Shown here: positions 24,345-27,485 of the stretch, one piece after another
How the letters are laid out: every line of letters starts with the position of its first letter
How positions within the stretch are numbered: the first letter of the stretch is position 1
Assembly: GCF_003697815.1 (NCBI RefSeq)
Contig: NZ_RDQG01000031.1
Location: forward strand, 1 to 42,108
Direction: 5' to 3'
Length of the DNA: 42,108 nt
Source: Halalkalicoccus subterraneus
GTDB taxonomy: Archaea; Halobacteriota; Halobacteria; Halobacteriales; Halalkalicoccaceae
Notes under the pieces: generated by a model
Told to the model about the DNA's origin: nothing
What the model saw: the letters and a program-made list of their open reading frames with translations, nothing else
The model's database searches: none
Program-made: the position numbers and the translations under genes

Positions 24345-25238
24345 ATGGTATCGCTCGCACGTTCGTTCGGGTCCCGCGTGTACGAGAACCTCCTCCTGCG
24401 CGAGATCGACGACGGCCCGACCCACGTCGCCGTCATTCAGGACGGCAACCGCCGATACGCCAGAAAACAGGGTACCGAGACCTCCGACGGCCACCGTGCC
24501 GGCGCACAGACCACCGAACAGGTACTCAACTGGTGTGAGGAGCTCGGTATCGAGGAGCTCACCCTCTATGCGTTCTCGACGGAGAACCTCGAACGCCCGC
24601 CCGAGGAACGCGAGGCGCTGTACGACCTCCTCTGCGAGAAGCTTCAGGAGTTTGCCGACGCCGAGCGCGTTCACGACGGTAGCGTGCGGATCCGCGCGAT
24701 CGGGGACCTCTCGTTGCTTCCCGAGCGGGTGCGAGAGGCCGCCCGCTACGCCGAACAACGTACCCGGGGGTACGACACGTTCGTCCTCAACATCGCGCTG
24801 GCCTACGGCGGCCGCGCCGAACTGCTCGGCGTGGCCCGCGACGTCGCCCGGGCGGTCGAGACCGGCGAGATCGATGCAGAAGAGATCGACGCAGAAGAGA
24901 TCGACCGGCGGCTGTACGACGACGAGCTTCGGGACGTCGACCTGATCATCCGCACCGGCGGGGACGAGCGCACCTCGAACTTCCTGCCGTGGCACGCCAA
25001 CGGCAACGAGGCCGCCGTCTTCTTCTGTGCGCCGTTCTGGCCCGAGTTCTCGAAGGTCGACTTTCTCAGAGCTGTCCGGACCTACCAGCACCGCGAAGCC
25101 TCCTGGCAGCGGACGAAGACCCAACGGGCGCTCGCGCTGGTCGGCGCGCTCTCGGACGTCGACCTCCCCAAGGCACGGGACGTCATCGACAGTGAGGACA
25201 CCCCGGTTCGGGAAGCCACCGTGCCGGCCGAGCAGTAA
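24345..25238 (+). CDS. cis-prenyltransferase (undecaprenyl diphosphate synthase family), catalytic type
   Basis: A 297-residue cis-prenyltransferase homologue that elongates isoprenoid diphosphates to the polyprenyl carrier used in archaeal glycosylation. The catalytic motif is intact: THVAVIQDGNRRYARKQG at about residues 26-43, with Asp33. Then LYAFSTENLERPPEER, FVLNIALAYGGRAEL and DLIIRTGGDERTSNFLPW follow. After that the usual AELYFTD block is altered (GNEAAVFFCAPFWPEF). An in-frame 15-bp duplication gives EIDAEEIDAEEID near residue 180. A second family member lacking the catalytic motif lies convergent 200 bp away. Exact chain length and partner are not known. Confidence 0.93.
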   Translation: MVSLARSFGSRVYENLLLREIDDGPTHVAVIQDGNRRYARKQGTETSDGHRAGAQTTEQVLNWCEELGIEELTLYAFSTENLERPPEEREALYDLLCEKLQEFADAERVHDGSVRIRAIGDLSLLPERVREAARYAEQRTRGYDTFVLNIALAYGGRAELLGVARDVARAVETGEIDAEEIDAEEIDRRLYDDELRDVDLIIRTGGDERTSNFLPWHANGNEAAVFFCAPFWPEFSKVDFLRAVRTYQHREASWQRTKTQRALALVGALSDVDLPKARDVIDSEDTPVREATVPAEQ

Positions 25239-25440
25239 CTCCCGTACCCCTCGGCGAGAAACACCGATGACGACGGGTATACGGGCGTACGAGCTTTTTT
25301 TCGGCGTTCCCGGCGGACCCGCGACGGTGTGGGTCCCGCCGGTCGAGTGCTGAGGACCGAGTTCGGTCTCGGCGCTCCGGTCGCGTGATTCGGTCGATAG
25401 ACCGAACTGTCGGGGCTTCGCCGAGTCTACGTGATTTGCG
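25239..25440. terminator. terminator region with T-run and hairpins between convergent genes
   Basis: The 202-bp spacer between the two prenyltransferase genes holds a run of seven T (25295-25301) after the plus-strand gene. Next come a GC-rich stem (CCGGCGGaCCC against GGGTcCCGCCGG, about 25310-25344) and a tight hairpin TTCGGTC-gata-GACCGAA at 25389-25406. It looks like a two-sided terminator. Confidence 0.55.
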
Positions 25441-26049
25441 CTACCGTCCGAACCGCCGGCTGCGTTTCTTGTAATCGAGGACGGCCCGAAGGTAGTCCCG
25501 TTTCCTGAAGTCCCGCCAGTTGACGTCCGTGAAGTAGAGTTCGGCGTAGACCGACTGCCAGATCATGAAGTCCGAGAGGCGCTCAGCCCCCGTCTTGATC
25601 AGCAGGTCGGGTTCGTTGGGAAAGACCAGTTGGGACTCGATGTCCTCGTCGCGGATCCCGTCAGGGTCGCGCTCGCCACGTTCGACCTCGCGGGCGAGTC
25701 CGCGGACCGCGCGGGCGAACTCGCGTTTTCCCCCGAGGCCGATCCCGATACTGATCGGGGTGTCGACCCGTTTCGTGTCCTCGGGACCGCGTACCGCGAC
25801 CGGTCGCGGGGCGTCGATCTCCGCGAGTTCGCCGCCGAGCGTGGGTGCGGCCGCCGGGTCGAGTACGCTGACGTAGACGGTCACGCGGTCGGCGCCGAAC
25901 TCGAAGGCCCATTCGAGGACGTCTTCGAGGGTTGCGTAGGCCCCGCGTTCGAGGAGGTCACGCTCGGTGAGCACGATGGCGACGTGGCTCGGCGACGTGC
26001 CGTCGTGGCGCTCGACGCGGGCAGCGAGATACCGGTCGTACAGACCCAC
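25441..26049 (-). CDS. cis-prenyltransferase homologue lacking the catalytic DGNRR motif
   Basis: A 202-residue member of the undecaprenyl diphosphate synthase family. At the position of the catalytic xDGNRRxA it reads SHVAIVLTERDLLERG (residues about 21-36), so the essential Asp-Gly-Asn-Arg is gone. The C-terminal half is well kept: DLLIKTGAERLSDFMIWQS, AELYFTDVNWRDFRKRDYLR and a final RRFGR. This is the pattern of the non-catalytic partner in heteromeric enzymes (NUS1/NgBR). Start: a GTG at 26047-26049 gives a protein beginning GLYDRYLAARVERHDG; a GTG at 26100 would add 17 Gly-rich residues. It is divergent from the DUF92 gene. Confidence 0.85.
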   Translation of the reverse strand: MGLYDRYLAARVERHDGTSPSHVAIVLTERDLLERGAYATLEDVLEWAFEFGADRVTVYVSVLDPAAAPTLGGELAEIDAPRPVAVRGPEDTKRVDTPISIGIGLGGKREFARAVRGLAREVERGERDPDGIRDEDIESQLVFPNEPDLLIKTGAERLSDFMIWQSVYAELYFTDVNWRDFRKRDYLRAVLDYKKRSRRFGR

Positions 26050-26143
26050 ACCACCCCTCTCGCCGGTACCCCCGTAAGTCTCACGGCCTTCGGAAACCAC
26101 GCCCCGCCCGTCGAAACCGGCCCCCGTTTCGGAACAGATGCGA

Positions 26144-26152
26144 TAGTATAAG
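26144..26152 (+). promoter_or_regulatory. TATA element for the DUF92 gene, possibly bidirectional
   Basis: The sequence agtataagt lies about 28 bp ahead of the GTG at 26178, the position expected for a leaderless haloarchaeal transcript. The reverse strand (cttatact) could serve the divergent prenyltransferase homologue. Confidence 0.5.
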
Positions 26153-26177
26153 TGATCAACCCCGAAACCGGATCGGT

Positions 26178-27485
26178 GTGACCGGCGGTGTTCGACGGGC
26201 GGGCGCGTTCGCGTTCGTGGGTAGCCTCTCGCTCGCCGCGCCGTTGCTTGGCCCCGCCTCCTTCGTCCCCTTTGCGGCCATTGGCCTGCTCGCGGCGCTC
26301 GTCATCGACGGTGGCCCGTTGTTCGATCTCTTTGCCCGCCCCGGCGACCACGAGGATCGTACCCTCTACGGGCTCGCAGGCTTCTCGCTGGCCGCCACCG
26401 GCCTCGCCCTGCTCGTCATCGTCGGCTTTCCCCCCGAACTGTTCGCGGGTACCGTCTGCCTGCTTGCCGGGGGCAACCTCGCCCAGCAGGCGGTCGCGAC
26501 CCGCTCCGGGCGCGACCTCGCGCCGACGGCCGGCTTCGTCACCGGCGGGTTCCTCGCGGGTACTGCCGCCCAGCTGTTCGTTACGCCCTTCTCGCTCGGC
26601 GTGGCTCCCGAATCGGCGGCGTTCCTCGCGGCCTGTGGCGCGCTCATCGGCTCGCTGTTGCGAACCGTCCTTTACCAGCGCGACGACCCGCTCGTCCTGC
26701 TGAGCGTGGGGCTCGTCCTGTGGGTGATCGCGGACCTCGGGATCGAGACAGCTCCCACGGAGATCGCCGTCGCCATCGCGGTGACGGCACTGTTGGGCTA
26801 CGTCTCGTATGCGCTCGGAACCGCCTCGGTTCCGGGGATGGTCACCGGAATGCTGCTCGCGCTCGTCACCATCGTCCTCGGGGGCTACGCGTGGTTCGTC
26901 CTCCTGATCGCGTTTTTCGCCATCGGCGGCCTCTCAGCGAAGTTCCGCTACGACCGAAAACTCGACCGCGGGGTCGCCGAGGACAACGACGGCGCGCGCG
27001 GCAGCGGCAACGTACTGGGGAACTCGGCGGTCGCCCTCGTGGCGGTGCTGGGCTACGCCGCGACGCCCGATCCCCTCTCGATGCCGGCAGGCCTCTTTTT
27101 CTTCGCCTTTGCGGGGTCGGTCGCCACCGCGATGGCCGACACCCTCTCCAGCGAGATCGGCGGGGTCTACGACGATCCCCGACTCATCACGACCGGAAAG
27201 CGCGTCGCTCCGGGCACCGACGGCGCGATCACGTGGCAGGGCGAACTCGCCGGGCTCGCGGGTGCGCTCGCGGTCGCGGGCCCCGCGCTCGTCCTGTTCG
27301 AGACGATCTCCGTGTTTGGCGCGGTGCTGATCGCGGTCGGCGGGGTCGCGGGAATGACCGCCGACAGCCTGCTCGGGGCGACCGTCGAGAACCGCTGGCT
27401 CGACAATCAGGGCGTGAACTTCCTCGCGACGCTAGTCGGCGCAGCCGTCGCCGTCGGGCTCGCGGCGCTTGCAGGGCTGTTTTGA
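26178..27485 (+). CDS. DUF92 family membrane protein (phytyl-phosphate-kinase-like)
   Basis: A 435-residue polytopic membrane protein with about ten or more hydrophobic segments. The DUF92 signature is in the C-terminal third: ATAMADTLSSEIGGVYDDPR, LITTGKRVAPGTDGAITW, then GMTADSLLGATVENRW. Plant VTE6, a phytyl-phosphate kinase, belongs to this family. That makes a role in phosphorylating isoprenoid phosphates plausible, especially beside two prenyltransferase homologues. The N-terminal half (about residues 1-215) is an extra membrane region. The start is GTG, chosen because of the TATA box 28 bp upstream. Confidence 0.85.
   Translation: MTGGVRRAGAFAFVGSLSLAAPLLGPASFVPFAAIGLLAALVIDGGPLFDLFARPGDHEDRTLYGLAGFSLAATGLALLVIVGFPPELFAGTVCLLAGGNLAQQAVATRSGRDLAPTAGFVTGGFLAGTAAQLFVTPFSLGVAPESAAFLAACGALIGSLLRTVLYQRDDPLVLLSVGLVLWVIADLGIETAPTEIAVAIAVTALLGYVSYALGTASVPGMVTGMLLALVTIVLGGYAWFVLLIAFFAIGGLSAKFRYDRKLDRGVAEDNDGARGSGNVLGNSAVALVAVLGYAATPDPLSMPAGLFFFAFAGSVATAMADTLSSEIGGVYDDPRLITTGKRVAPGTDGAITWQGELAGLAGALAVAGPALVLFETISVFGAVLIAVGGVAGMTADSLLGATVENRWLDNQGVNFLATLVGAAVAVGLAALAGLF

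Follow-up and report, generated by a model that had tools for sequence, protein, structure and literature searches.

Convergent genes for a probable two-subunit cis-prenyltransferase in Halalkalicoccus subterraneus and other haloarchaea

The window analysed here, a stretch of 42,108 nucleotides from Halalkalicoccus subterraneus, carries two genes for homologues of cis-prenyltransferases (cPTs) that face each other tail to tail, followed by a gene for an integral membrane protein. The plus-strand gene (24345–25238) is an intact open reading frame for a DHDDS/UppS-like protein of 297 residues, the putative catalytic subunit, which contains HVAVIQDGNRRYA and covers positions 1–216 of the Pfam profile PF01255 (E 1.4e-69). 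Its substrate-phosphate motif DGNRR (residues 33–37; 24441–24455, plus strand) is unchanged in all 48 aligned catalytic relatives, as are the R, R and S of the block RTGGDERTS (R203–S211; 24951–24977, plus strand), which aligns with the pyrophosphate-binding R194/R200/S202 of E. coli UppS. At the position equivalent to the C-terminal RXG motif the protein reads S-W-Q (25101–25109, plus strand), the motif being missing.

The minus-strand gene (25441–26049) runs from a GTG start at 26049, where the VGLY start is conserved, to 25441, and encodes an NgBR/NUS1-like protein of 202 residues that we take as the putative non-catalytic partner subunit. Both TERDLLE and AELYFTDVNWRDFRKRDYLRAVLDYKKRSRRFGR occur in this protein, whose match to PF01255 (E 4.7e-27) covers only profile positions 108–219 and is confined to the C-terminal half of the protein. 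TERDLLE (25948–25968, minus strand) replaces the DGNRR loop, and the C-terminal RXG motif is present as RFG (25447–25455, minus strand), its Arg and Gly unchanged in 44/44 partner relatives. The protein is 92% identical to its H. paucihalophilus counterpart. The first-pass annotation of this DNA had described a plus-strand protein with the catalytic motif intact and a diverged C-terminal block, and a minus-strand homologue in which DGNRR had become TERDLLE while the C-terminal RFG was kept; the open reading frames, coordinates and motifs of both genes proved to be exactly as described.

AlphaFold2 (AF2) models built on diverse relatives were confident overall, with a pLDDT of 85 for the catalytic subunit and 83.5 for the partner. 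The top VIA structure match of the catalytic model was human DHDDS (7pb1_A; Z 28.3, rmsd 3.1, 249 aligned), with which bacterial UppS tied, and the partner model matched cPT folds, NUS1 included, at a VIA Z of about 13–14 (human NUS1 6z1n_B against model residues 1–202: Z 13.7, rmsd 4.4, 179 residues).

We examined the distribution of motifs by jointly aligning 48 relatives of the catalytic protein and 44 of the partner, window proteins included, with UppS of E. coli, DHDDS and NUS1. Every catalytic relative (48/48) has D26/G27/N28/R30 (E. coli UppS numbering), and none of the 44 partners has the DGN-R motif; in two of them a lone D aligns with D26. Conversely, the RXG arginine (R242) is found in 44/44 partners versus 0/48 catalytic proteins. 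In these aligned sequences the division of motifs far exceeds chance, and the complementary motif loss suggested by the first-pass annotation, on the pattern of eukaryotic NUS1/NgBR with its catalytic partner, thus extends across the aligned relatives of both proteins (48/48 versus 44/44). In homodimeric cPTs, Mg and the allylic diphosphate are bound by the residues of D26–R30, H43 and the F70–R77 block; of these, the partners have also lost H43 and most of the F70–R77 block. The partners mostly retain the pyrophosphate-binding residues (K or R at position 194 in 44/44, R200 in 42/44, S202 in 38/44). NUS1, by contrast, carries K, S and L at positions 194, 200 and 202, and the archaeal partner is therefore less degenerate than NUS1.

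The two genes are also found together. Among 145 haloarchaeal genomes with a completeness of at least 95%, the partner was present in 145 and a full-length catalytic gene in 144. Because the partner gene is intact and kept in all 145 genomes, we ruled out the reading that it is a pseudogene. The sole exception, a genome assembled in 120 contigs (G072, locus L252), has the partner but no catalytic gene was found in it, perhaps as a result of an assembly gap. A second search of 391 genomes gave a match in 377/377 of those of good quality, although catalytic and partner cross-matches were not separated there. In a wider sample of 119 Halobacteriota genomes, PF01255 matches occurred in 117, of which 115 had a recognisable partner separate from the catalytic gene. 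Two genomes of family f18 (G397 and G405) had neither a PF01255 match nor a match to the partner profile. In two genomes of family f20 (G399 and G407; loci L257 and L258), which have a catalytic gene and a second PF01255 match, the partner profile found no clear separate partner. The expectation from the first pass, that the partner would not be absent where the catalytic gene is kept, therefore holds in all haloarchaeal genomes searched, and the phylum sample did not refute it: both genes are present in 115/119 genomes and both absent in 2, and in the two f20 genomes no partner was clearly recognised. The gene pair for this probable two-part cPT is near-universal in haloarchaea and their relatives.

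Gene order is conserved as well. In the window, 202 bp (25239–25440) separate the ends of the two genes, and the convergent order recurs in 71/71 named haloarchaeal loci that hold the two genes no more than 6 kb apart, at spacings of 18 to 4142 bp. Outside Halobacteria the genes are linked in 28/95 genomes from ten families, again convergently in 28/28. Genes in this arrangement do not form a co-transcribed operon. A co-directional arrangement was seen only once, in an extra catalytic/partner pair on contig C39 of the same H. subterraneus genome (L005, 4785–6902), which lies in sequence of 48–59% G+C versus 66% in the window, near DUF58/DUF4129/DUF7519 genes and with a truncated amine-oxidase-like open reading frame between the two genes (PF01593, 19.4 bits, slightly below the cut-off). 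We considered whether co-duplication of a matched pair on C39 could serve as proof of pairing, and this was not upheld: the catalytic copy groups as sister with a low-G+C copy from a different genome of the genus, the partner copy is closest to a family f9 partner (83% identical), and the two thus have different histories. Extra catalytic genes with no extra partner occur in other haloarchaea (L233, L234, L247, L248, L249 and L250), those of one genome (G225) lying in low-G+C sequence; open reading frames near such genes resemble, by eye, MoxR ATPases or MacB-type ABC transporters. A further locus (L251, 6914–8779, in G002) holds an open frame of 622 residues that includes a divergent cPT-like domain scoring 103 bits and has no DGN motif.

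In a phylogenetic tree the catalytic proteins form one clade (support 99/95) and the partners another (96/88), with the MM_0014 type separate from both (100/100). MM_0014 is one of three cPT paralogues of Methanosarcina mazei, with MM_0618 and MM_1083; it has no RXG and was crystallised as an active homodimer (PMC8131916). According to Emi et al. 2019, as cited in PMC8131916, MM_0618 and MM_1083 form a heteromer with C45–50 products that is the likely source of the glycosyl carrier lipid. The concept of a heteromeric cPT is therefore not new, an archaeal heteromer from M. mazei being already on record. A heteromeric cPT is reportedly also present in Archaeoglobus fulgidus. Papers about protein function in Haloferax and about the membrane lipids of archaea yielded nothing on the catalytic/partner pair.

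We used one sampled genome, G480, to relate the window pair to the M. mazei proteins. It has three PF01255 genes, one of them near-identical to MM_0014 (460 bits), and we accordingly took it as Methanosarcina. Its remaining PF01255 genes encode a relative of the catalytic protein (48% identical to that of the window) and a relative of the partner (37%), between which the motifs are divided in the same way; by elimination, they would be of the MM_0618/MM_1083 type. The window pair thus appears to be orthologous to MM_0618/MM_1083, an assignment made by elimination in G480. The two systems are alike in pairing a catalytic with a partner homologue, one of each per genome, but the two genes are unlinked in G480, whereas those of the window lie tail to tail.

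Human DHDDS/NgBR (NUS1) and plant CPT/LEW1 show the same split, a catalytic protein with DGNRR and no RXG beside a partner with RXG and no DGNRR, and the same folds, although the archaeal partner differs from NgBR in being short (202 residues), in having no N-terminal membrane region and in keeping most of the R-R-S block. Bacterial homodimeric UppS resembles the catalytic subunit in fold and motifs (the structural alignment gives 39% identity over 225 residues) but carries DGNRR and RXG in one chain, whereas these motifs are divided over two proteins in the window pair; this division, together with the tree, rules out a homodimeric UppS. The short cPTs of the MM_0014/MA1831 type are archaeal and lack RXG, as does the catalytic subunit. 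They are, however, homodimeric proteins of about 224 residues that end in TLGG and form a clade of their own, and since the catalytic protein falls outside that clade and has a C terminus that is not TLGG, we ruled out this assignment too. NUS1 is placed on the partner side of the tree (96/88) on a branch of 6.2, so long that its placement is unsure and long-branch attraction possible, and profile scores do not choose between the partner and catalytic sides for NUS1; the tree weakly suggests that NUS1 may descend from an archaeal partner.

The motif split, the predicted folds, the co-occurrence and the conserved gene order lead us to propose, with a probability of roughly 0.88, that the catalytic and partner proteins are subunits of one heteromeric cPT of the DHDDS/NgBR type. 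In the human enzyme the RxG-bearing C terminus of NgBR reaches across the interface and contributes to the active site of DHDDS, which on its own is about 400 times slower than the complex (PMC7573591). By analogy, the plus-strand protein would carry out the chemistry, with DGNRR and the R-R-S block binding its substrates, allylic diphosphate and isopentenyl diphosphate. The minus-strand protein would keep the cPT fold without the catalytic loop, and its C-terminal RXG would cross the dimer interface to complete the active site of the catalytic subunit, as NgBR does for DHDDS. We infer that the two proteins dimerise physically, that the pair is catalytically active and that it makes a polyprenol product, probably the polyprenyl diphosphate precursor of dolichyl phosphate for glycosylation.

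Several observations count against a heteromer. The absence of RXG alone is no proof of one, because MM_0014 is an active homodimer without it (PMC8131916); human DHDDS has weak activity on its own (PMC7573591); the genes are convergent; in one haloarchaeal genome no catalytic gene was found; and extra catalytic copies occur with no extra partner. An alternative in which the catalytic protein acts as a homodimer while the partner, a degenerate paralogue, does something else, for example regulation or lipid binding, would accommodate the MM_0014 precedent, the unaccompanied extra copies and the lack of an operon. It is nevertheless unlikely, since the catalytic protein does not belong to the MM_0014 clade, the RXG arginine is universal among the aligned partners and absent from the catalytic proteins, and co-occurrence and gene order are nearly invariant. 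A third reading, in which the partner is an enzyme in its own right, cPT-like but with altered chemistry, as its almost intact R-R-S block might suggest by contrast with NUS1, is more improbable still given the loss of the D26–R30 loop, H43 and most of the F70–R77 block.

The proposed heteromeric pair also has a conserved neighbour. Beyond the partner gene, across a divergent gap of 128 bp (26050–26177), lies a plus-strand gene (26178–27485) for a DUF92 integral membrane protein of 435 residues (PF01940, E 5.2e-58), so that the catalytic gene is tail to tail with the partner and the partner head to head with DUF92. Of 80 named haloarchaeal loci, 74 show the divergent partner/DUF92 adjacency. 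Other neighbours, dnaG among them (69/80), are conserved nearly as well there, and since the whole neighbourhood is conserved inside Halobacteria we discounted synteny there as evidence for a functional DUF92 link; only other families can argue for one. Outside Halobacteria the partner adjoins the DUF92 gene in 38/95 genomes from seven families, divergently in 38/38, and in families f15, f19 and f26 this link is kept while the catalytic gene sits elsewhere. PF01940 matches occur in 119/119 sampled Halobacteriota genomes, as a single match in all except one, which has two; the two f18 genomes retain the DUF92 gene in the absence of both cPT genes. Among 14 control genomes, PF01940 was found only in Synechococcus elongatus and three archaea.

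We take plant VTE6, a phytyl-phosphate kinase, to be a member of the DUF92/PF01940 family; a literature search on VTE6 and DUF92 returned no decisive text. The conserved divergent adjacency with the partner makes the DUF92 protein a candidate for an unassigned step of archaeal dolichyl-phosphate synthesis, and as a candidate polyprenyl-phosphate pathway enzyme it would fit a gap named in a 2016 phylogenomic survey, which called the remainder of the archaeal dolichyl-phosphate pathway unknown (PMC5088576). More speculatively, and on balance doubtfully, the catalytic protein, the RXG partner and DUF92 might represent an ancestral Halobacteriota dolichyl-phosphate cluster, with DUF92 acting, for example, as a polyprenyl-phosphate kinase like VTE6 and the partner being of an ancestral NUS1 type.

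In conclusion, our analysis would extend the two-subunit enzyme for the glycan-carrier lipid, beyond humans and another archaeon, to haloarchaea. Since these include the genetically tractable Haloferax volcanii, straightforward gene deletions could show what the RXG partner does. The archaeal pair bears on whether the eukaryotic NUS1/DHDDS pair came from archaea. The part of the result most worth following is the DUF92 linkage, which points to a candidate gene for the portion of the dolichyl-phosphate pathway left blank in PMC5088576.
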